Virus record (IMG/VR): IMGVR_UViG_3300024231_000003
Span: 1 to 64,000 of that record
DNA: 64,000 nt
DNA from: a virus
Reading direction: 5' to 3' (one strand)
In this document: piece by piece, positions 27,228 through 51,342 of the stretch
Layout: every line of letters starts with the position of its first letter
Numbering within the stretch: the first letter of the stretch is position 1
Notes under the pieces: model-generated
Database searches by the model: none
What the model was told of the DNA's origin: nothing
What the model saw: the letters and a program-made list of their open reading frames with translations, nothing else
Made by a program: the position numbers and the translations under genes

Positions 27228-28523
27228 ATGGCAGATTTTACTAATGGTATAGAAAATGCCCAACACTATTTAAATGCAGTTGATCAAGCAAGTATAGAAG
27301 TACCAACATCTGTTACTTCTAATTTGTTATCAGGTACAGTATCTTCAAGCACAACAAGCTTTAGTATACGAGAAATTATATGTAGTTTACTTGCTGGAAA
27401 TGGCATAAAGCTACCTAATTTACAAATATGTTTAAAAGTTAATATTGGCAGACTATTAAGTATCAGTGGACTTCCACTATCTATAAAAAATGCATTACTT
27501 TCTGTAGAAAAAGCATTAGATGACTTTATTACACATACTGGTATAGACAATGTGCTAGGTAGATTAAACTCTGCCATTGGTGAATTTGCCGCTATTGCTA
27601 ACATGATTAATTTTTGTGGAACACCAGTAGTACCACGTGCTATTCCAAATGTACTAAAAGATGTATTTGGAGCATACTTAGGTAAAGGACAAGATTTAAT
27701 GGATCGATTAGGCGTAATGCTTGATAATGATATTGGATTATGTTTGGGAGACGGTGGATTTAATGTAAGCATTTTTCAGTCAGGATTATTAAAAGATATT
27801 GGAGATTGGGTAGATGATTTTGGAAATATGCCAACTGCAACAATTAATAGTATTACTAACAGTTTAAAAAATCTATCTTCTGATATTAATGACTTAATTA
27901 AATTTGAAAATAACTTTAGCGGCACAGATAATGCTGGCGGTAGTACATTTAGTCCTACAGAAGGCAGAGTGCATACTGGTATTGGTACAGCACTTCCTGA
28001 AAACATGACACTTGCTGAAAGTCAAAAATATGCAAGTTTATTAAAAGCATTGTATTCAGCTACAAGTGCTTATCCTGTTGATGATGCTGGTAATAATATT
28101 ATGCATTACTTACTAGAACCAGAACTTATATCTAAACTGGAATTAGATAGCAATCCCACATATACACTGGAAGAAAACGAACCAGTTTATGATCATTGTG
28201 GAGTTATTACTGGTTATACAAAATCCACAATACAGGCTCCTGCACCAACAAGCACAGGCGGACCAACAGCATCAGCAACACAGCCAGGTGTAGTTGGTCT
28301 TGCAGAAAGCGGAATAGTTCTTAATAACTCTCCTGCATCAACCGTAAATCTAGGAACGACGAACCCCAATGTTCAGTCAAGTGTACCAGATACTCCTATT
28401 GGTAAAAATGGCGATAAAAAAGGTGATATGGCAGTTAATAGTACACATACATTTATTGCAATTGCTAATTATGATGGTACAACAGCAATATGGTCAAAAT
28501 CAGCAAATAATACTAGTTGGTAA
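27228..28523 (+). CDS. Large virion (baseplate-associated) protein
   Basis: 431 residues following the PAAR gene by one base. The first two thirds are helical with four cysteines; after ~Asn 330 a Pro/Thr/Ser-rich linker leads to a C-terminal region (NGDKKGDMAVNSTHTFIAIANYDGTTAIW) like the short repeated ends of phage tail fibres. The context argues for a baseplate/spike component. Family function unknown. Confidence 0.6.
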   Translation: MADFTNGIENAQHYLNAVDQASIEVPTSVTSNLLSGTVSSSTTSFSIREIICSLLAGNGIKLPNLQICLKVNIGRLLSISGLPLSIKNALLSVEKALDDFITHTGIDNVLGRLNSAIGEFAAIANMINFCGTPVVPRAIPNVLKDVFGAYLGKGQDLMDRLGVMLDNDIGLCLGDGGFNVSIFQSGLLKDIGDWVDDFGNMPTATINSITNSLKNLSSDINDLIKFENNFSGTDNAGGSTFSPTEGRVHTGIGTALPENMTLAESQKYASLLKALYSATSAYPVDDAGNNIMHYLLEPELISKLELDSNPTYTLEENEPVYDHCGVITGYTKSTIQAPAPTSTGGPTASATQPGVVGLAESGIVLNNSPASTVNLGTTNPNVQSSVPDTPIGKNGDKKGDMAVNSTHTFIAIANYDGTTAIWSKSANNTSW

Positions 28524-30152: not shown

Positions 30153-30590
30153 ATGAAATATATAACCACATTAATAATTGCATGCTTAATTGCAACAAGT
30201 ACATTTGCTAAAGAGCCAGTAATGGTTGAATACGATTTTCCTATTACTAGAGTTATTGATGGAGACACAGTGGCATTTGAAGCAAACTTTTTGCCAGACC
30301 CATTCAAGAAAGAATTAAGTATTCGTGTGTATGGTGTTGACACTCCTGAAAAAAGCTGGAGAGCAGAATGTGATAAAGAAGCACAATGGGGTGCAGAAGC
30401 TAGTGCATTTACAAAAAACATGATTAACGAATCACGTAACATTAAAATTGCTATTTACAAATGGGACAAATACGGTGGACGTGTGTTAGGTGATATTATA
30501 CTTGATGGATTTAGTTTACGTCAACTATTAATTGAAAATGGCTATGCACGTGAATATTACGGAGACAAGAAAGAATCATGGTGTGACTAA
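30153..30590 (+). CDS. Secreted staphylococcal-nuclease-like enzyme
   Basis: 145 residues: a signal peptide (YITTLIIACLIATSTFA) then an SNase fold with VIDGDTV (catalytic Asp), RVYGVDTPE and KYGRVLGD motifs. Such enzymes cut DNA/RNA with Ca2+. Export implies periplasmic or extracellular action, for example to salvage DNA or clear DNA from competing phage; that is inference. It follows the first tRNA array by 21 bp with a TAGGAG SD sequence, and its end overlaps the next gene. Confidence 0.85.
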   Translation: MKYITTLIIACLIATSTFAKEPVMVEYDFPITRVIDGDTVAFEANFLPDPFKKELSIRVYGVDTPEKSWRAECDKEAQWGAEASAFTKNMINESRNIKIAIYKWDKYGGRVLGDIILDGFSLRQLLIENGYAREYYGDKKESWCD

Positions 30591-31785
30591 TCCCAAAGAT
30601 GAAAAAGGATTTTGTGTAATACCATTTACACAATCGTTCATACAAGATAATCGATCCAGGCTATGTTGTGAAAGTAAACAAACAGACGTATTTTATTTAA
30701 CAGAAGATGTAAATTTTTCTGATATATGGAATAATGATTTTCATCAGAGCATTAGAAAACAAATGTTATCAGGTTCTGGCGTATTGCCAACATGTTGTGA
30801 AATTTGCACAATGGATGAAGAATCTGGCGAAGAAAGTATGCGCCAATTTCAAAACAAGTATCAAAACGCAAGCATTGCTGATTTTAATAGTGTAATAGCT
30901 CCCCCTCCGATTAGTTACGATATTAGAGCAAATAATAAATGCAATCTTGAATGTGTAATGTGTGATGGACGTCTTAGTACAGCTATCCATAAAAGACTTA
31001 ACGACTATGGTTTAACTGATGATGATGATTTTCCTGTTACATTTGGTGAAGAGTGGAAACAACAAGCATATATTATTGACCATGTTAAAGAAAATAGTAG
31101 CAATATTACTAGTATGAGATTTGCTGGAGGTGAGCCTTTTTTAATGCCAGAAGTATTAGACATGCTTGAATATTTTGCCAACACTGGAGATAGCAAAAAT
31201 ATTGATTTACAAATTCTTACTAATGGTACTACAGTGAGAACTAAATGGTTTTCCAATATACTTACCAAATACAAAAAAGTAAGATTAAAAATTAGTATAG
31301 ACGGCATTGGTGAAACTGGAGAGTATGTAAGATACCCTTCTAAGTGGAGCGTAGTTGATAAAAATATACAACGTCTACTAAAAATATCAAAAGAAAACGA
31401 CAATATAAATGTTGATCTAGTGCCAGTAATTCATTTGCTTAATGCATTAGAAATGGATAAAGTTATAGAGTATGCAGCAATCAATGAAGTTGATATGGCA
31501 TTAACACCAGTATATACAGCAAGCAGTAATTATCATATAACAGCTGATTTACTTACTAATGATCTTAGAAAGATAGCACATGATAAAATGATGAATATGC
31601 TAGACAAATATCCAGATATGTCATTTAGTGTAGGTAAAGGATTTATAACAAATTTGTTAAACATGAAGCAACGAACAGACCCTCGACCAATACAGCAACT
31701 TAATCAAGTTGTAAAATATTGGGATAGTCATAGAGAAGTTAAGTTCCTTGATCGATACCCATATTTGGATTATCTAATTAAATAG
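30583..31785 (+). CDS. Radical-SAM 'twitch' family protein (family B, copy 1)
   Basis: About 400 residues from GTG 30583, which overlaps the nuclease stop by eight bases; upstream ATG 30532 lies deep in the nuclease gene and is less likely. An N-terminal cysteine group (FCVIPF, RLCCES, CCEIC) probably binds an auxiliary cluster. The radical-SAM motif NNKCNLECVMC comes next, then RFAGGEP and a strand ending in SIDGIGE. Paralogous to proteins at 34971 (minus) and 43206: all share the SIDG-like and 'RWP/RYP' motifs. Substrate unknown. Confidence 0.85.
   Translation: MTNPKDEKGFCVIPFTQSFIQDNRSRLCCESKQTDVFYLTEDVNFSDIWNNDFHQSIRKQMLSGSGVLPTCCEICTMDEESGEESMRQFQNKYQNASIADFNSVIAPPPISYDIRANNKCNLECVMCDGRLSTAIHKRLNDYGLTDDDDFPVTFGEEWKQQAYIIDHVKENSSNITSMRFAGGEPFLMPEVLDMLEYFANTGDSKNIDLQILTNGTTVRTKWFSNILTKYKKVRLKISIDGIGETGEYVRYPSKWSVVDKNIQRLLKISKENDNINVDLVPVIHLLNALEMDKVIEYAAINEVDMALTPVYTASSNYHITADLLTNDLRKIAHDKMMNMLDKYPDMSFSVGKGFITNLLNMKQRTDPRPIQQLNQVVKYWDSHREVKFLDRYPYLDYLIK
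31779..31784 (+). promoter_or_regulatory. Late-type motif with leaderless spacing before the amidotransferase-like gene
   Basis: TAAATA ends at 31784, five bases before ATG 31790. No SD sequence is evident. Confidence 0.45.
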
Positions 31786-32340: not shown

Positions 32341-32348
32341 TATAAATA
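32341..32348 (+). promoter_or_regulatory. Late promoter for the ferritin-like gene
   Basis: TATAAATA, perfect match. The +1 should be about 32354, exactly where the first hairpin of the leader begins. Confidence 0.75.
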
Positions 32349-32353
32349 TAGTT

Positions 32354-32512
32354 GTAGCACAGAGTTGTGCTATTCATCAAGTATGATTCACATGTTTATA
32401 GCAGAGTTGCTATATTATTTAAGGTGTGACTCATTTATTATAAAAATAAATGTTTTATTCAAATTGTCTACATAGTAGACAACATTACAAAGTTAAAATG
32501 GAGAATAATACA
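32354..32512 (+). promoter_or_regulatory. Structured 5' leader with serial hairpins
   Basis: Four stem-loops in 130 nt: TAGCACA-GAGT-TGTGCTA (32355-32372) at the mRNA 5' end; ATAGCA-GAGT-TGCTAT (32398-32413) with an outer arm ATGATTCACA/TGTGACTCAT (one mismatch, 32383-32434); CATTTATT/AATAAATG (32432-32452); GTCTAC-ATA-GTAGAC (32466-32480). Two hairpins share the same GAGT loop. The gene's GGAG SD sequence lies free downstream. Likely mRNA stabiliser or cis-regulator. Confidence 0.7.
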
Positions 32513-33217
32513 ATGGCTTTAACAGGTAAACAATTCGTAGAACAAGTAGCAGCAGATAACGCAGCACTATTCACAGCATCAAAAATGAACGTAAAAGCGT
32601 ATTTTGAGAGCAAAAACAACTCAACAGAAGAACTAGTTGAGCACTTCATCGGTCGTATGGTTAACGAACGTATGAACATGGTAGAGATCAGTAAGCAAGT
32701 AGCAGCAATGCCAGCAAATGCAGATCCAATGGAACTACAAAATCTATCAAAGCAAGCACACGATGAAGCAGTACACTTCCGTATGGTTAAAGAGTGCATC
32801 GAAAAAATCACAGGCGAAGAACTAGACGTAGACGCAGCAATCGCAGCAGAAGCAGCTAAGCCACAAGCTAAAGGTGCTGATCTTTTAGACAAGTACGAAG
32901 CATCAAATGATGAAGCAGCACTAGCAGTATACCAAATGGTTGCTGAAGGTCGTGCAGAAGCAGTATGGAACCAAATGGCTGACTCAATTGAAGATTCATT
33001 CATTGCTAAATCTTATGCAAAAATCGCAAAAGACGAAGGTTTCCACTCAACTATCGGCGCAATGAAACTAGAAACAATTGCAACAGATGCAGATACACAA
33101 GCACGTATCCTAGCAATCGTTGACGGAATGCGTAAAGACTTATTCAACGTATCATGTGAAAACACACTAGAAGCTGAAGGTTCAAAAGAACTAGTAGCTG
33201 AAGCATACGGTTGGTAA
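32513..33217 (+). CDS. Ferritin-like di-iron carboxylate protein
   Basis: 234 residues, all-helical. Helices carry the di-metal pattern: Glu in EELVEHFIGRMVNE, ExxH in DEAVHFRM, Glu in AEGRAEAVWNQ, and ExxH in DEGFHSTI. Start: GGAG at 32500-32503 favours ATG 32513 over the in-frame ATG 32498. Codons include more C-ending forms (ATC, TAC, TTC) than its neighbours, suggesting high expression; a long structured leader and strong terminator support that. Could be an oxygenase, an iron store or a peroxidase. Nearest functional family not certain. Confidence 0.75.
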   Translation: MALTGKQFVEQVAADNAALFTASKMNVKAYFESKNNSTEELVEHFIGRMVNERMNMVEISKQVAAMPANADPMELQNLSKQAHDEAVHFRMVKECIEKITGEELDVDAAIAAEAAKPQAKGADLLDKYEASNDEAALAVYQMVAEGRAEAVWNQMADSIEDSFIAKSYAKIAKDEGFHSTIGAMKLETIATDADTQARILAIVDGMRKDLFNVSCENTLEAEGSKELVAEAYGW

Positions 33218-34221: not shown

Positions 34222-34981
34222 TTATATCCTTTATTATAAAGTTGGTCCAGTTTTTATTTGTATCAGGTCCTGCATGTTCACCATCTCTGCCCTTATCAAC
34301 ATAATACTCTTCTTCAAGTGTAGGCCATGATTTTATAGGTATAGTTGTATCTATCCCTTGTGGTCTATCAAAACAATGTACTTCTACATTATGTAACTTC
34401 CATGTATTAATAATAGATTGCTGCATTAAATATGATTTAGTCATGTAGTTACTTTCATAGTATACATATCTTTCCCAAAATTCTATGATGTCATTACCAG
34501 ACCAGTGACCAAGTTGTTGTATCTTATCATCTTTATATATCAGATATCTTGAAGGACATGGGAACATAATTATAACTTTTTTTGGAATATAATTAGACTG
34601 TATTAGGGCATGTGTATTATGGTGTAAAGTATCAACACTTGCACCAGACACACCCATATTTATGGTAGTATTATTTGTGATCTGTTCATATATATTTGGA
34701 ATAGTATGCTTGTTATGCACGCCTTGACCAAATATATGACTGCATCCAAGAAATAGTACACATTCTTTCCAGTCAAATTCTTGTAATTCCTTTGTTCTAT
34801 ATCCGTGTGAATTAAGTCTATAATTCAGGTCCTGGGAATTAAAATATCTCCAATCAGTGCCTAGCTCTTTCTTTGTCTTAATCCAATTTGATTTGTGGTC
34901 ATCATGTAACCATTCGAGTGTAAGATTTGGAGTTTTTTTCTTATTTTCTAAATTTAAAATATCTATTTTATTAAACATCAA
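34214..34981 (-). CDS. SGNH hydrolase-like protein
   Basis: 255 residues. Block I: VLFLGCSHIFGQG with the GCSH Ser; NMGVSGASVDT supplies the block II Gly; a C-terminal DGEHAGPDTN with Asp/His matches block V. Related in layout to the 20203 protein. It may remove an acyl group from a glycan or from the product of the neighbouring enzymes. Overlaps the radical-SAM gene by 11 bp; GGAAGGA SD sequence. Confidence 0.6.
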   Translation of the reverse strand: MMFNKIDILNLENKKKTPNLTLEWLHDDHKSNWIKTKKELGTDWRYFNSQDLNYRLNSHGYRTKELQEFDWKECVLFLGCSHIFGQGVHNKHTIPNIYEQITNNTTINMGVSGASVDTLHHNTHALIQSNYIPKKVIIMFPCPSRYLIYKDDKIQQLGHWSGNDIIEFWERYVYYESNYMTKSYLMQQSIINTWKLHNVEVHCFDRPQGIDTTIPIKSWPTLEEEYYVDKGRDGEHAGPDTNKNWTNFIIKDIND

Positions 34982-36077
34982 AATGATCCTTCCAATTTAA
35001 TCCTCTGATATTATTCAGTGTTTCAAAATAGGACAACATCTTTTCTCTTAACTTCCCCCGTTCATCTTGGCTACTATTGAATTTGACTATTTTTGTCAAT
35101 TTTTTATTATTTAAATCTAGTATTGTTTGTATTATTTCAGGACTGGCTAAAAATGGTTGTAAGTGCTTTGGTTCATAAACACTCATGCCTGCCCAATGTA
35201 TATCCCGCTCATCACACCATTCTATTAATTTAGGTAGTGACTGCAAACTAGCAGCCTGGACACTAGTTTCAACATTAACTTTAATATTATCGTATGATAT
35301 CATTTTATCTACATTGCGTTCTAATTTGTCCCATTTGATAGGCCATCTTATAAAATCATTAGCTTTTCCATATCCATCTATACTAACATTTATTCGTACA
35401 TCTTCAAATTTAGATAGTACATCTTGTAGTTTTTTTCCAAAGCTGCCCCCGTTAGATGTGATTTGTATAATTGAATGGTTTTTATTTTCTTGTTGTGCTT
35501 CTAGTACAATTTCTAAAAAGTCACTTAACAATCCTCTAACAGTAGGTTCACCACCAGCAAATCTTATTTTACGTGCTTTAGATGCTTCTACTGCAATAGT
35601 TCTAAATTTAGCAGGATCGTCAAACCAATTAACTTCTGGAGAATGATGTTGTGGTCTAAATATTTTAAGTTGTGGATTTTTATTGTGTTCTTCTTCCATC
35701 AAACTACTATTGTAACTACCACACATAATACATCCAGCATTGCATATATTACCAAATTTAATCTCTGTGTCGAATAAACTAAACTCGCCTTCATTAGTAT
35801 ATCTCTGATCGCCGTTATATATCATTCCGTCAATATTGGCTTTTTCATCTAGGACACATTCATTGCATCCTTGGCCAAACCTATTGTTTTTCATATCATT
35901 CATTAGTTTTTTATAAAAATCACTATTTAGATAATCTTGTATTGTATTTTCAGATACTAGAACTTGATCAGGCTGCTCTTGCCAAGCACAACATGGACGA
36001 TAAACGCCTGTACTACTGATACTAATATGATTTACTGGCCATTTACACTTCATAAACATATTTATACTTGTTGACAT
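34971..36077 (-). CDS. Radical-SAM 'twitch' family protein (family B, copy 2)
   Basis: 368 residues. N-terminal cysteines (KCKWPV, YRPCCAWQ, GCNECV), then the radical-SAM motif GNICNAGCIMC, RFAGGEP, QITSNGG and SIDGYGKA with FIRWP. Paralogous to the proteins at 30583 and 43206 (shared RFAGGEP, SIDG, IRWP). First gene of a four-gene minus operon with an SGNH protein, a 2OG oxygenase and a ParB-fold protein. Its start lies against the plus-strand promoter of the structured RNA at 36071. Confidence 0.85.
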   Translation of the reverse strand: MSTSINMFMKCKWPVNHISISSTGVYRPCCAWQEQPDQVLVSENTIQDYLNSDFYKKLMNDMKNNRFGQGCNECVLDEKANIDGMIYNGDQRYTNEGEFSLFDTEIKFGNICNAGCIMCGSYNSSLMEEEHNKNPQLKIFRPQHHSPEVNWFDDPAKFRTIAVEASKARKIRFAGGEPTVRGLLSDFLEIVLEAQQENKNHSIIQITSNGGSFGKKLQDVLSKFEDVRINVSIDGYGKANDFIRWPIKWDKLERNVDKMISYDNIKVNVETSVQAASLQSLPKLIEWCDERDIHWAGMSVYEPKHLQPFLASPEIIQTILDLNNKKLTKIVKFNSSQDERGKLREKMLSYFETLNNIRGLNWKDHFDV

Positions 36078-36099
36078 TGACTATCTATTATGCTAATAT
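36071..36099 (+). promoter_or_regulatory. Sigma70-type promoter for a structured RNA
   Basis: TTGACA (36071-36076), 17-bp spacer, TAATAT (36094-36099). The predicted +1 (36106) is the first base of a long stem. Confidence 0.7.
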
Positions 36100-36105
36100 A
36101 TGTAC

Positions 36106-36290
36106 AGACAGTATGCTAGTAGGATGACACGGACGCAATTTACTTGCAGCATCGAATACATATTGTCTAGTGGGGGAATAAAGCTTTTAGTTGACTGTTA
36201 TGTATCTGGCCAGCATCATAACCAACTGTAAGAGTTAGGTAATAAAAACGGATTAGCTATCCTGATAGATCCTTGGACCCCCACATATAT
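36106..36290 (+). ncRNA. Structured non-coding RNA candidate upstream of the second tRNA array
   Basis: No ORF of note. P1: AGACAGTATG (36106-36115) with CATATTGTCT (36159-36168), one G-U. P3: GTGGGGG (36170-36176) with CCCCCAC (36278-36284). Inside P3: P4, AGTTG and GTTATG (36189-36202) with CATAAC and CAACT (36217-36227); P5, GGAT/ATCC plus CTAT/ATAG (36250-36272). The predicted +1 coincides with the P1 start. It is not a tRNA, and I do not recognise tmRNA, 6S or RNase P features. The 3' end is not fixed by a T run; it may be processed from a longer transcript that continues into the tRNAs. Confidence 0.6.
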
Positions 36291-36302
36291 TAAATAAAAG
36301 TG

Positions 36303-36331
36303 TTGACACTCTAATTAATATGTAGTATTAT
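36303..36331 (+). promoter_or_regulatory. Promoter for the second tRNA array
   Basis: TTGACA (36303-36308), 17-bp spacer, TATTAT (36326-36331). Near copy of the first-array promoter (shared GTGTTGACAC and a TGTAGTAT end). A TATAAATAC late motif overlaps the -10 (36329-36337), so it may fire both early and late. Confidence 0.8.
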
Positions 36332-36350
36332 AAATACATAATATAAATTA

Positions 36351-36441
36351 GGACAGGTGGGTGAGTGGCTTAAACCAGGGGATTACTAATCCTCCGAACG
36401 TTCATAGCGTTCCGTGGGTTCGAATCCCACCCTGTCTGCCA
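36351..36441 (+). tRNA. tRNA-Ser with anticodon ACT
   Basis: Acceptor GGACAGG/CCTGTCT (one G-U), anticodon arm GGGGA-TTACTAA-TCCTC, long variable arm GAACG/CGTTC, T arm GTGGG/CCCAC, CCA encoded. Ordinary AGY-reading serine tRNAs have GCT; here position 34 is A. Unusual (see findings). Confidence 0.9.
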
Positions 36442-36447
36442 AAGTTT

Positions 36448-36522
36448 TGGAACGTAGCATAATGGTAATGCACCGCTTTTTGGTAGCGTAGAGTATAGGT
36501 TCGAGTCCTATCGTTCCAGCCA
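36448..36522 (+). tRNA. tRNA-Gln(TTG)
   Basis: Acceptor TGGAACG/CGTTCCA, anticodon loop TTTTGGT within CGCT/AGCG, T arm ATAGG/CCTAT, CCA encoded. Confidence 0.92.
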
Positions 36523-36527
36523 AGTTT

Positions 36528-36602
36528 GGTCCCTTCGTCTATCGGTTAGGACGCCAGGTTTTCAACCTGGAAAGACGGGTTCGATTCCCGTAGGGACTAC
36601 CA
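36528..36602 (+). tRNA. tRNA-Glu(TTC)
   Basis: Acceptor GGTCCCT/AGGGACT, anticodon arm CCAGG-TTTTCAA-CCTGG, CCA encoded; the CCA is directly followed by the next tRNA-like gene. Confidence 0.95.
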
Positions 36603-36691
36603 TATCAGTGCAGGTTTGCTAACAGTATTAGATATTCCCCCAGGCGTCAATATCGCCACTGCGGTAAGGTTCGAGTCCTTAGCTGATACCA
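36603..36691 (+). tRNA. Atypical tRNA-like gene
   Basis: Acceptor TATCAGT/GCTGATA (one T-G), T arm TAAGG-TTCGAGT-CCTTA, short variable-arm-like CGC-CACT-GCG, encoded CCA. The middle does not make a normal anticodon arm: the best stem is GATATT/AATATC with a 12-nt loop. Either a degenerate tRNA, one with a non-canonical anticodon domain, or a tRNA-like RNA. It abuts tRNA-Glu without a gap, so it is co-transcribed and processed with it. Confidence 0.6.
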
Positions 36692-36706: not shown

Positions 36707-37792
36707 ATGATAAAATTAGATACAGTACACGTTGAAATAACTAACAGATGTAATGCAATGTGTCCAGGATGCACTAGGCAAGATCCTGATACTGGAAAGT
36801 TACTCGATTTTTTTCATACAACTAATGAAGTTGATTGGTCATTATCTGACTTTAAAAATATACTTCCTCCTCATATTGTTAAAGATACAAACATATTTTT
36901 TGGAGTAACAGTTGATGAGCCATTAATGAATCCAAACTTTTTAGATATTGCAAAATATGTAATTGCGTCTGGAGGTAATATTGAACTTGATACTAATGCA
37001 GGTGCTGGAACAGAAAAAACATGGACTGAATTTGGTAGATTATCACGTGACAATCCTGGAAGAATAAGAGTTGGATTTTCAGTAGATGGATATGAAGATA
37101 CAAATCATATATATCGTGTTAATGTCAAGTGGAATACAGTTGTAAGAAATATGAAAGCATTTGCACAGAATTGTAAAGATGCAACTTGGGTATATCTAGC
37201 ATTTGATCATAATGAGCATGATATACCAAAGGCAGAAAAACTAGCAACAAAAATGGGTATCAAATTTAAAGTACGTGCAAATACTCGAAATATTAAATCT
37301 TGGGTATCAAATACTACTATTAAAAAAGATAAAAAGATAGTTAAAGAAACAAAAATAGTCAAAGTAGACTCTGATAGTAAATTTAAACATAGCGACTTTG
37401 AAAAGATAAAAAAATTAACAAGTCGTAAATCTGACGAATATACTAAAAGTGAACTTGACACCATATCTTGTTTATTAATAGATCAACAAGAAGTTATGAT
37501 TGATTGGTCAAAGAGAATGTGGCCATGTTGTTGGTGGGGAGATGCATATCTTTCAAAAAACAAAAGATGGATGAAAAACATTATTTCTCAATATGGAGAT
37601 GATTGGAATCGGGTAGATTTAACATCAATAGATAAAATACTAGATCATGAATATTATGCTAGTATATTAGGTGGTGAAGCTAGATATGATAATACTAGTA
37701 AATTCTACTGTGGTGATAGTTGCTTTAAGCACTGTGGTGATAAAGGCAAAAGAAATTACGAATACTTTGATAAAGATGGCAAATCAGTCTAG
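36707..37792 (+). CDS. Radical-SAM protein with SPASM-like C-terminus (family A, second copy)
   Basis: 361 residues. C15, C19 and C22 (NRCNAMCPGC) form the cluster motif; C-terminal WPCCWWG, FYCGDSCFKHCGDKG supplies more cysteines. Shares NHIYRVNV.WNTV.RNM and a Lys-rich insertion with the protein at 3134. The duplication across the genome suggests two substrates or sites. Followed by a leader and the B12-type radical-SAM gene. Confidence 0.85.
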   Translation: MIKLDTVHVEITNRCNAMCPGCTRQDPDTGKLLDFFHTTNEVDWSLSDFKNILPPHIVKDTNIFFGVTVDEPLMNPNFLDIAKYVIASGGNIELDTNAGAGTEKTWTEFGRLSRDNPGRIRVGFSVDGYEDTNHIYRVNVKWNTVVRNMKAFAQNCKDATWVYLAFDHNEHDIPKAEKLATKMGIKFKVRANTRNIKSWVSNTTIKKDKKIVKETKIVKVDSDSKFKHSDFEKIKKLTSRKSDEYTKSELDTISCLLIDQQEVMIDWSKRMWPCCWWGDAYLSKNKRWMKNIISQYGDDWNRVDLTSIDKILDHEYYASILGGEARYDNTSKFYCGDSCFKHCGDKGKRNYEYFDKDGKSV

Positions 37793-37799
37793 TCAAATA

Positions 37800-37807
37800 G
37801 ATAAATA
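37800..37807 (+). promoter_or_regulatory. Late promoter candidate for the B12 radical-SAM operon
   Basis: GATAAATA; predicted +1 about 37813, nine bases before the first leader hairpin. Confidence 0.5.
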
Positions 37808-37812
37808 AAACT

Positions 37813-37917
37813 ATAAGATACTGCCGTTAACACGGCAAGCTGGACATACAGCTTAAACTAATTAAGGCGTTTGGGCGCCATCTAGACCCATTTATAATAC
37901 TTTAATTAGGAAGATCT
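37813..37917 (+). promoter_or_regulatory. Structured leader with possible SD-sequestering stem
   Basis: Three hairpins: TGCCGT-TAAC-ACGGCA (37822-37837), AAGCTG-GACATA-CAGCTT (37837-37854) and GGCG-TTTGGG-CGCC (37866-37879). CTAATTAA (37858-37865) is complementary to TTAATTAG (37902-37909), whose end is part of the AGGAAG SD sequence (37908-37913). Pairing would enclose hairpin 3 and hide the SD sequence of ATG 37918. No known riboswitch consensus recognised. Confidence 0.6.
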
Positions 37918-39792
37918 ATGAATATATATTTAACACAAATTAATAACACCATAGCAGATGCAATCTTTCTGCCTCTTTCTGTTGGCTACGTGTGGGAATA
38001 TGTTAAAACTCAAAAAGACTTGAAGAAATGTAAATTGGGTGGTATCATATTTGAAAGAGATACTATAGAAAATTATATGGACCAGATAAAAGACCCTGAT
38101 GTAATAGCAATTAGTACATATGTGTGGAACTGGACAATTAGCCAAGAACTAGCTCGTGCTGTTAAGAAGAAATATCCAAAATGCTTAATTGTTATGGGCG
38201 GACCACAAGTACCATTCAAGAAGCAATGGCTTGAGGAAAATAGAGATATGTGTGACGTTATTGTTACATATGCTGGCGAGCGTACATTTGCAGAAGTGCT
38301 TAGAGGAAACTTAACAGCGCCAGGTATTATGAGTGAACACGGATACATTCCTCCCAAGCCAGATAGAGATATATCAGATATTCCAAGTCCATATTTAAGT
38401 GGACTAATGGATAGTTTAATGGATCCTGATAAGAACTATAGTGCTATTGTAGAAACAAATAGAGGATGTCCTTATAGTTGTACATTCTGTGATCAAGAAG
38501 CAGTGTATTATAACAAGATTGCCAAGTTTGATTATGATAGAGTTATTGCAGAAATAGATTGGGTAGTCAAACATAAAATTGACTTCTTATATTTTGCTGA
38601 TAGTAACTTGGGAATATTTGATAGAGATGTAGACTTTATGAGATATATTGCAAAATGTAGAAACGAAACTGGATACCCTAGAAATATCGATTACTCAACA
38701 GCAAAGCAATCTCCTGATCGAGTAACAGAACTTGGAAAAATATTAAATCAAGAAGCAGGCATTACACGTGGTATGACAATTGCACTACAGAGTATGAATC
38801 CTGATACACTTAGTGCAATTAAAAGAATAAACGCTGCTAATGATAAACTAAAGAAAACTATAGATGATTTTCATGCAAATGGTGTTGATAATTATTGTGA
38901 GCTTATATTAGGATTACCAGAGGAAAGTTTTGACAGTTGGGTTAAAGGTACTGGTGAAATACTTGACATAGGCAGTGATCACGCATTACAAATGCACCCA
39001 CTAAGTGTTGTGCCTAACACTCCATTTATGGATGAAGATTATGTACAAAAATATGGTTTAAAATATACACCCACTCAAGCACCTGCAGGAGGAAATACGT
39101 ATCCTGGTGATAGTAATGGTGAGATTGATTACATTTGCTATGAGACAAATACAATGACTCGTGATGAATGGATAGATGCATACTTCTTTACAAAAGGAAT
39201 AGTTATACCTCACCATTATCATGGATTTAGTCAAGTGTTAGCAACCTATCTAAACAGAGAGCTAGGTATTCCTTTTATTGAATACTATACCTTTTTGTTT
39301 AATTGGAGTAAAGTAAGTAGTGGAATTTTACACTCAGAATACATGGCACATACAAATAGTGTTCGTGAAAGCTTATTTGAAAATAAAACTTGGGGTCGCC
39401 CTGTAGATGATACTGATAATTTCCACCTACAAGATAATGGTGCAACTGCATCTTGGTTATATGAAAATATAGATGCAGTATATAATGAGTTACTTATGAT
39501 ATGCAGTGTTAAGTGGGAAATAGATGTATCTGAAGTACTAAGATACAACAAGCACATACTAGATAGATATAATGAAACAACTCAAGATGCTGAATATGAT
39601 AAAAATTGGCATGGATGGTTTAATAATAATGAAACATTAAAAGATGAAAATACTACTGTATCTATTACCACACGTAAAGAATATACAAGTAAATTAGATC
39701 ACGCCAAACATTTATTTTGGTATGGTAGAAAAGCCAAACGTTGCTTCTTAGCAGCAAATGAAAGGAAAACACAATATGATACGAGTAGCTGA
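37918..39792 (+). CDS. B12-binding-domain radical-SAM protein
   Basis: 624 residues. N-terminal Rossmann-like domain (DVIAISTYVWNWT, IVMGGPQVPFK) as in cobalamin-binding radical-SAM proteins, then ETNRGCPYSCTFC with the three cluster cysteines, LYFADSNLGIF, and ELILGLPEES typical of the family, plus a ~200-residue C-terminal extension. I see no DxHxxG cobalamin ligand motif, so base-off B12 binding is uncertain. Likely methylates or rearranges an unreactive carbon. Its end overlaps the peroxiredoxin-like gene by 17 bp. Confidence 0.85.
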   Translation: MNIYLTQINNTIADAIFLPLSVGYVWEYVKTQKDLKKCKLGGIIFERDTIENYMDQIKDPDVIAISTYVWNWTISQELARAVKKKYPKCLIVMGGPQVPFKKQWLEENRDMCDVIVTYAGERTFAEVLRGNLTAPGIMSEHGYIPPKPDRDISDIPSPYLSGLMDSLMDPDKNYSAIVETNRGCPYSCTFCDQEAVYYNKIAKFDYDRVIAEIDWVVKHKIDFLYFADSNLGIFDRDVDFMRYIAKCRNETGYPRNIDYSTAKQSPDRVTELGKILNQEAGITRGMTIALQSMNPDTLSAIKRINAANDKLKKTIDDFHANGVDNYCELILGLPEESFDSWVKGTGEILDIGSDHALQMHPLSVVPNTPFMDEDYVQKYGLKYTPTQAPAGGNTYPGDSNGEIDYICYETNTMTRDEWIDAYFFTKGIVIPHHYHGFSQVLATYLNRELGIPFIEYYTFLFNWSKVSSGILHSEYMAHTNSVRESLFENKTWGRPVDDTDNFHLQDNGATASWLYENIDAVYNELLMICSVKWEIDVSEVLRYNKHILDRYNETTQDAEYDKNWHGWFNNNETLKDENTTVSITTRKEYTSKLDHAKHLFWYGRKAKRCFLAANERKTQYDTSS

Positions 39793-44492: not shown

Positions 44493-44520
44493 TTGACATA
44501 CTAAGCGATTGTAGTATACA
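44493..44520 (+). promoter_or_regulatory. Sigma70-type promoter for the transporter operon
   Basis: TTGACA (44493-44498), 16-bp spacer, TATACA (44515-44520). A late-like GATAAATA lies at 44471. The leader (44530-44617) contains GACC-GTCCT-GGTC and a perfect ATAATTGC-AAA-GCAATTAT hairpin (44574-44592). Confidence 0.65.
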
Positions 44521-44617
44521 ATAACCCTATGAAACTGACCGTCCTGGTCGGCCCAACAAACAGGCCATTACGGATAATTGCAAAGCAATTATAATCAATA
44601 TTTCAAGGAAAAAAATT

Positions 44618-45601
44618 ATGAAATTATTAAACCTAAAAGCCGCCGCAATGGCGACTATCGTAGCCTTTACGGCAAGTGCATCTGCAGCAGCAGAGTGCGA
44701 AGTAACTATCGCTGAACCTAATTGGAGTTCAGGTCAATTTATGGCATATCTAGATAAGTTTGTTGTAGAAACAGCATTTGGCTGTGAAGCAGAACTAATG
44801 CCAGCAGCTTCTATTGCAGTAGCAACAAGTATGACTGAAAAAGGCACACCGCATATTGCTGGTGAATTTATTTCAGTAAGTGTTGGCGATGTTGTGGACC
44901 AAGCAATTGCTGAAGGAAAAATCCTTATTGCAAATGACGACCCATACCAAGGCGGCGCACAAGAAGGATTTTATGTATCTAAAAGTGTATTAGATGCAAA
45001 CCCAGAAATTAAAACAGTAGAAGATCTATTAGAACGTCCAGAACTAGTTGGCGGTAAAGTATTTTCTTGTCCAGGCGGTTGGGGTTGTAATGCTACAATG
45101 CGTAACAATCTATTAGCACTTGATGTTGAATCAAAAGGCTTTGAAATTGTTGTTCCAGGATCAGGTGCAGCATTTGACGGTTCAATTGCAAACGCAGCAC
45201 AACGTGGTACTGGTTGGTTTGGTTTTTACTGGGCACCAGCAGGCATGTTAAGTAAGTTTGGAATGGTTCCATTACCAACTCGTGCAGGTTTTGCAGGTAC
45301 AGATTATTGGACAAATTGTGCTACTGATTTAGAGTGTACTAATCCACAAGTATCAGATTTTCCAAAACCAACAATCCGTTCACTAACAGTACCAGAATTT
45401 GCAAATGCTAACCCAGCAATTGTAGCGTACTTAGCAAAACGTGACTTCTCAATTGAACAAATTAACTCATACTTAATTCAAATGGAAGCATCACAAGAAA
45501 CAGCAGAAGAAGCAGTTGTATCATTCTTTAAAAATAACGAAGATGTATGGACAACATGGTTTACTGCAGAAACTGTTGCAAAAATTAAAGCAGCACTATA
45601 A
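44618..45601 (+). CDS. proX: Periplasmic glycine betaine/proline-binding protein (ProX/OpuAC)
   Basis: 327 residues with an N-terminal signal peptide (LNLKAAAMATIVAFTASASA) ending near AECEV. Body features match OpuAC solute-binding proteins: TIAEPNWSSGQ, GDVVDQAIAEGK and WFGFYWAP with aromatic residues that could cage a quaternary amine. The function would be import of betaine, proline betaine or related osmolytes. A transporter gene in a phage is a striking auxiliary gene. AAGGAA SD sequence; permease gene follows by three bases. Confidence 0.8.
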   Translation: MKLLNLKAAAMATIVAFTASASAAAECEVTIAEPNWSSGQFMAYLDKFVVETAFGCEAELMPAASIAVATSMTEKGTPHIAGEFISVSVGDVVDQAIAEGKILIANDDPYQGGAQEGFYVSKSVLDANPEIKTVEDLLERPELVGGKVFSCPGGWGCNATMRNNLLALDVESKGFEIVVPGSGAAFDGSIANAAQRGTGWFGFYWAPAGMLSKFGMVPLPTRAGFAGTDYWTNCATDLECTNPQVSDFPKPTIRSLTVPEFANANPAIVAYLAKRDFSIEQINSYLIQMEASQETAEEAVVSFFKNNEDVWTTWFTAETVAKIKAAL

Positions 45602-51232: not shown

Positions 51233-51235
51233 ATA
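51228..51235 (+). promoter_or_regulatory. Late promoter for the 51343 gene
   Basis: TATAAATA overlapping the previous stop codon. The +1 (51241) is one base from the start of the following long hairpin. Confidence 0.7.
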
Positions 51236-51240
51236 TATAC

Positions 51241-51325
51241 ACATGATACGATAGGTCAGTGACCAGGAATAGCAAATGCCTGAGAGTGGAATTAGTCAGC
51301 GGAATACCTTATCATATCATGTAAA
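51241..51325 (+). ncRNA. Structured late 5' leader / candidate regulatory RNA
   Basis: Terminal stem CATGATACGATAGGT (51242-51256) with ACCTTATCATATCATG (51306-51321) encloses a GGTC-AGT-GACC hairpin and two short internal stems. Two similar pieces, GTCAGTGACCAGGAATA and GTCAGCGGAATA, occur inside. The AGGAG SD sequence (51333-51337) of ATG 51343 is outside the fold. Resembles no riboswitch I know. Confidence 0.55.
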
Positions 51326-51342
51326 AGAAAATAGGAGAACGG

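Follow-up and report, generated by a model that had tools for sequence, protein, structure and literature searches.

Introduction

Bacteriophage T4 carries two annotated small stable RNAs, rnaC and rnaD, within its tRNA cluster. The roles of these RNAs (RNAC and RNAD, or species 1 and 2 RNA) are described as unknown in a review (PMC3014915), and a second paper classes them as late RNAs and reports their confirmation by Northern blot (PMC9697503). GOLLD and ROOL, noncoding RNAs of phages and prophages, are often found near tRNA islands and are of unknown function, and many GOLLD members are longer than 800 nt (PMC12286853). The candidate RNA described here adjoins a phage tRNA gene cluster, as is typical of this broad kind.

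The DNA analysed, hereafter the window, comprises bases 1–64,000 of an 87,708-bp IMG/VR virus record. Its relatives suggest that the phage is marine, as a preliminary description of this DNA had assumed. The replication genes in the window are T4-like (a UvsX-like recombinase, a helicase, a primase, a DnaB-like helicase and a ribonucleotide reductase), and at least six window genes have radical SAM matches. UvsX-like genes of 62–70% identity were also seen on long contigs (L182, L183, L185 and L188) filed under bacterial metagenome-assembled genomes; these are probably phage contigs misplaced in bins.

The noncoding stretch of interest lies between a divergent, minus-strand radical SAM gene (34971–36077) and three plus-strand tRNA genes (36351–36602): tRNA-Ser (anticodon ACT, 36351–36441), tRNA-Gln (TTG, 36448–36522) and tRNA-Glu (TTC, 36528–36602). 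Downstream follows a plus-strand, phrog_21308-like radical SAM gene (36707–37792; Pfam Radical_SAM 27.5 bits, just below the cut-off of 29.5). Pattern searches of IMG/VR gave no match for the minus-strand radical SAM gene and only two relatives, both distant, for the plus-strand one. Since neither flanking gene has a close relative there, the locus appears to be a variable island.

Results

Promoters and a predicted transcription start at the foot of a stem

The pattern TTGACA-N17-TANNNT occurs at 13 sites in the window, 12 of them on the plus strand, against 2.0 expected and at most five in any of 100 shuffles. These sites are thus a real promoter family of the phage, of a type that the principal sigma factor of the host recognises. 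One member, TTGACA-17-TAATAT at 36071–36099 on the plus strand, has an extended -10 element (TGC) and opens the noncoding stretch, as the preliminary description had proposed. Counting to the seventh base after the -10 places +1 at 36106 (an A), and this is indeed the first base of the 10-bp stem named in that description. The tRNA array was also correctly said to have its own promoter: TTGACA-17-TATTAT at 36303–36331, on the plus strand and 232 bp downstream of the 36071 promoter. The upstream transcript would therefore not be needed for tRNA expression.

We found no intrinsic terminator where the candidate RNA ends, nor in the interval from 36284 to the tRNA genes, the first of which begins 67 bases after the closing helix ends. 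Transcription is therefore expected to read through into the tRNA operon. The separate transcript of about 185 nt that had been proposed is not indicated, and its length was a guess, given the lack of a terminator.

By codon score the region is not protein-coding: the longest ORF (36100–36231, 43 codons) scores -0.48 bits per codon, where gene fragments score +0.27 ± 0.17 with a 5th percentile of -0.02. This agrees with the earlier impression that the region holds no plausible ORF.

Two closed domains with an ordinary folding energy

Counted from the predicted +1 through the closing helix of domain 2, the candidate noncoding RNA spans 36106–36284 on the plus strand and folds into two closed domains. 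Domain 1 (36106–36168) is closed by the 10-bp stem 36106–36115/36159–36168, which has one G-U pair and pair probabilities of 0.89–1.0, and holds two inner stems (36123–36126/36150–36153 and 36135–36138/36144–36147). Domain 2 (36170–36284) is closed by the helix GTGGGGG/CCCCCAC (36170–36176/36278–36284), with pair probabilities of 0.97–1.0. Both closures had been noted before, together with two further stems inside domain 2, which fared less well: the arm 36183–36235 has moderate pair probabilities (0.44–0.78), and the stem 36236–36259 reaches only 0.22–0.35. The interior of domain 2 outside the main arm is poorly determined (0.22–0.43).

A stem of at least 10 bp within two bases of +1 is found at one of 12 plus-strand promoters, that at 36106 (the one minus-strand family site was left out); among random positions the count was 60 of 4,000. 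The closing helix of domain 2 is the window's sole 7-bp repeat with at least six G-C pairs and arms 80–130 nt apart, as against an expectation of 0.13 per 64 kb. Both of these rarity figures are post hoc.

The overall folding energy of the candidate RNA is ordinary, as 5–12% of shuffles match it. Shuffled sequences were at least as stable in 18 of 200 cases for 36106–36290, in 24 of 200 for 36106–36284, in 11 of 200 for hairpin 1 (domain 1) and in 21 of 200 for domain 2. Among 2,128 window segments its stability ranks at 5%, or at 12.5% after correction for G+C content. The preliminary description of a structured RNA is therefore confirmed in part. On the minus strand the fold is weaker relative to shuffles: 62 of 200 were as stable (z -0.43), as compared with 24 of 200 for the plus strand.

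Two further features of the sequence may be mentioned. A palindrome, CTGGCCAG, at 36206–36213 occupies the predicted tip of the domain 2 arm and could allow kissing-loop dimers. Moreover, pairing of a 10-bp inverted repeat (36094–36103/36283–36292) would bracket the entire RNA, but the repeat consists almost entirely of A+T, and +1 lies downstream of its 5' arm.

Searches for homologues

No Rfam family matches the candidate RNA even at E 10, the models of GOLLD, ROOL, OLE, 6S RNA and RNase P RNA included, and neither ARAGORN nor Rfam detected the tRNA-like domain and tag reading frame of a tmRNA. The preliminary description had set aside tmRNA, 6S and RNase P RNA on inspection, a view that these results support. 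Phage tmRNA genes were called on contigs of three relatives of the phage's nrdA (L082, 18141–18471; L091, 8254–8633; L093, 9596–10049).

Sequence searches were likewise negative. An exact 39-nt core had no match in viral_contigs, and the pattern GTGGGGGA N{90,118} GGACCCCCAC gave 16 loci there, all of different sequence and judged on reading to be chance matches. Among 50,697 phage records, blastn to E 10 returned nothing substantial in the best 20 of 178 matches. With a word size of 7, the best E values were 0.083 against L002–L099, where matches fell mostly in the A+T-rich tail 36284–36350, and 0.90 against L101–L180.

We also built a covariance model of the candidate RNA, which recovers its own sequence at E 2e-57. 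An nrdA query yielded 80 related contigs (74–84% protein identity), and the model matched none of these 80 records (49 searched at E ≤ 10 and 31 at E ≤ 1). It found no match in 19 further records, nor in six genomes holding T4-like contigs (L186, one of the eight loci, was left out; L182 and L188 lie in one genome). A single, unconvincing match (L106, E 8.5) was obtained among 73 of 80 p32 loci (L141–L147 left out). With filters off, four loci gave best E values of 0.14–0.55; these matches pair badly and were not accepted. As the model was built from a single sequence and many of the searched records are fragments, the absence of a homologue is not proof.

Relatives of the locus itself were sought through its neighbours. 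The tRNA-Ser anticodon-arm pattern had no match in viral_contigs, ORF 30532–31785 led to no relatives, and alignment A3 of ORF 27228–28520 had no match in genome_contigs. L026/L027, the closest relative to have an array of this sort, carries tRNA-Gln and tRNA-Glu genes 96–97% identical to those of the window; the candidate RNA was found there neither by blastn nor by the covariance model. Gaps in the tRNA arrays of relatives do hold RNA-like sequence (L026, 16498–16863 and 16940–17322; L038, 8165–8226), part of it a short hairpin (AAGRG/CYCTT) that recurs, with a conserved AATGRTGCC-type stretch behind it.

Candidate leader RNAs elsewhere in the window

A structured leader at 32342–32436 lies just after TATAAATA and upstream of the DUF455-like ORF 32450–33217 (Pfam E 0.005, below cut-off). 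It consists of two hairpins with GAGY tetraloops, the second of which is enclosed by an outer stem. A pattern search upstream of the same gene recovered counterparts in 15 of 15 other loci tried. These loci were selected from 26 whose upstream regions had been read; L110 was set aside because it nearly duplicates L109, and by eye the 10 more distant regions (L117–L139) lack the leader. In a 14-sequence alignment, from which L109 and L113 were dropped as near copies, six of 26 predicted pairs change on both sides yet keep the pair. Rfam gave no match at the gathering score. This leader is a candidate new cis-acting RNA, better supported than the RNA at 36106–36284, and it demonstrates that covariation can be detected with the available relatives when they have an RNA in common.

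Other stretches of the window resemble leaders. The leader of the B12-binding radical SAM gene 37918–39792 (37808–37917) begins shortly after GATAAATA at 37800 and folds with z -4.34, none of 200 shuffles being as stable. Leader-like intergenic stretches were also seen at 44505–44617 (z -2.73) and 51233–51342 (z -1.24); the first precedes gene 44618–45601, which has an OpuAC (glycine-betaine-binding) match, unexpected for a phage.

A tRNA-like element at the end of the operon

Directly 3' of tRNA-Glu, at 36603–36691 on the plus strand, lies a tRNA-like element with a 7-bp acceptor stem (TATCAGT/GCTGATA), a 5-bp T arm (TAAGG-TTCGAGT-CCTTA) and a CCA. Its middle is non-canonical, with no canonical anticodon region, and it was called neither by ARAGORN nor by Rfam; it has no substantial match in phage records. 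When 80 loci were scanned for an acceptor stem plus T arm, together with the window and a segment of T4, 117 matches were obtained, 115 of which are called tRNAs. The two uncalled matches are the window element and one inside T4 rnaC.

Discussion

A proposed leader of the tRNA operon

The promoter, the lack of a coding signal, the two closing helices and the genomic context are established by computation. Judged from these features, there is good sequence support for the view that the stretch gives rise to a promoter-driven, untranslated phage RNA that is structured at least in part. To a more specific reading we give about an even chance: the RNA would be the noncoding, 5'-stem-capped leader of the phage tRNA operon, freed by tRNA processing and perhaps kept as a stable RNA.

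Host RNA polymerase would start at 36106 from the early-type sigma70 promoter, and the first transcribed bases would immediately form the 10-bp stem, which is expected to protect the 5' end against degradation. Transcription would continue, with no terminator in its way, through tRNA-Ser, tRNA-Gln, tRNA-Glu and the tRNA-like element. The leader would then be released by RNase P, cutting at 36350/36351 in front of tRNA-Ser, and once its 3' end had been trimmed as far as the G-C closing helix, some 180 nt of stable RNA would remain. We infer the transcription, processing and stability of this RNA, as we would any function in trans.

Several observations argue for such a leader: the enriched promoter family has the 36071 site in it; 36106 alone among the 12 plus-strand starts opens on a 10-bp stem, a feature uncommon at random positions; the G-C closing helix is the only one of its kind in the window; the codon score rejects the ORF; relative to shuffles the plus strand folds better than the minus strand; no terminator precedes the tRNAs; and rnaC and rnaD provide a precedent in the T4 tRNA cluster. 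Counted against it are the unremarkable folding energy and the lack of a homologue, and hence of covariation, as well as the operon's own promoter, which makes the leader dispensable for tRNA expression, and the different position and timing of T4 RNAC and RNAD. The suggestion in the preliminary description that the RNA regulates host RNA polymerase or ribosomes found no support in our analysis.

Two candidate activities as a sponge were considered and not retained. At 36196, UGUUAUGUA agrees with the RegA SELEX consensus (PMC3014915) in its core; a RegA sponge was rejected, since this 9-mer occurs three times, with 1.9 expected, and a search of the record for RegA was negative, as it was for the control genomes. 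A GGA-motif (CsrA-type) sponge was dropped; several GGA triplets of the RNA lie in or beside predicted stems.

Alternative explanations

The stretch may instead be an ordinary promoter followed by an untranslated spacer in a fast-changing accessory region, whose helices are incidental, whose RNA is degraded and whose promoter simply adds to tRNA transcription. The fold energy inside the shuffle range is what such a spacer would show, and so are its position in a variable island, between radical SAM genes lacking close IMG/VR relatives, and the failure of the covariance model to find the RNA in any of the 80 records of nrdA relatives. However, neither the G-C closing helix nor the stem at +1 is a common feature, and the remaining plus-strand family promoters lead into, or sit inside, genes, except for the two that lead to tRNAs. 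We therefore regard a mere spacer as rather unlikely.

Less probable still is that the RNA works by base-pairing with the operon's tRNA-like element, either acting on it or adopting a joint fold with it. TGGGGGAATA (36171–36180) is the perfect complement of TATTCCCCCA (36633–36642), and imperfect pairing extends on both sides; the duplex would open domain 2 while domain 1 stays folded. Its energy of -61.3 kcal/mol was never reached when the tRNA-like element was shuffled 1,000 times and was reached once in 1,000 shuffles of the candidate RNA, it ranks first of 2,955 same-size segments (both strands), and the cofold of both RNAs gains 11.3 kcal/mol over the separate folds. However, once the partners' own folds are paid for, the gain (-11.8) ranks only 17th of 2,955, a perfect match of at least 10 bp occurs in 1.7% of segments, the test was chosen post hoc, after the 10-bp match had been noticed, and neither RNA has a homologue that could confirm the pairing. 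The pairing is thus a speculative lead and not a result. We consider it improbable that the two form a dedicated pair, in which domain 2 would open, pair with the 5' half of the tRNA-like RNA (non-decoding, and last on the three-tRNA transcript) and thereby control the processing or activity of that RNA; were this the case, T4 rnaC, likewise tRNA-like and in a tRNA cluster, would be the known counterpart of the second member. Pairing between T4 rnaC and rnaD was tried as a parallel and set aside, its energy (-57.8) not being notable against a background of -42.4 ± 9.7.

The structure could also act on the minus strand, as a leader or operator of the divergent radical SAM gene: this gene starts at 36077, so that the region is its upstream DNA, and inverted repeats fold on either strand. 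Yet the minus-strand fold is undistinguished (z -0.43), the G-U pairs in the helices break on that strand and no minus-strand sigma70-like site was found between 36078 and 36707, which makes this reading highly improbable. Finally, a very small protein gene under the 36071 promoter, of 35 codons from ATG 36124 or 43 from ATG 36100, is scarcely credible even though a single frame is open across most of the RNA, as its codon score (-0.45 to -0.48 bits per codon) falls under the 5th percentile of gene fragments, ATG 36100 lies upstream of +1 and the AGG before ATG 36124 leaves no spacer.

Comparison with described RNAs

The leader reading invites comparison with other RNAs found at such sites. 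GOLLD RNAs have an elaborate conserved structure, whereas the candidate RNA is about 180 nt long and finds no match in Rfam, and it is equally distinct from tmRNA, RNase P RNA and 6S RNA, the small stable RNAs of bacteria. It is closer to T4 RNAC and RNAD in that it, too, is predicted to be a small noncoding RNA beside a phage tRNA cluster. By blastn against a phage collection containing T4, no similarity beyond E 10 and at most 14% query coverage was seen among the best 20 of 178 matches. The arrangement also differs: the T4 RNAs lie at the 3' end of their cluster and are late, whereas the candidate lies at the 5' end behind an early-type sigma70 promoter. Moreover, T4 rnaC has a T arm and an acceptor-like stem, as does the element at 36603–36691, whereas the candidate itself has no tRNA-like part. 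Most likely, the candidate RNA is like T4 RNAC and RNAD in kind and not a homologue of them. Taken alone, it changes little; as a second, unrelated RNA beside phage tRNA genes, preceded by a clear promoter and sharing its operon with a tRNA-like element, it would offer another case in which RNAs of this kind can be tested.
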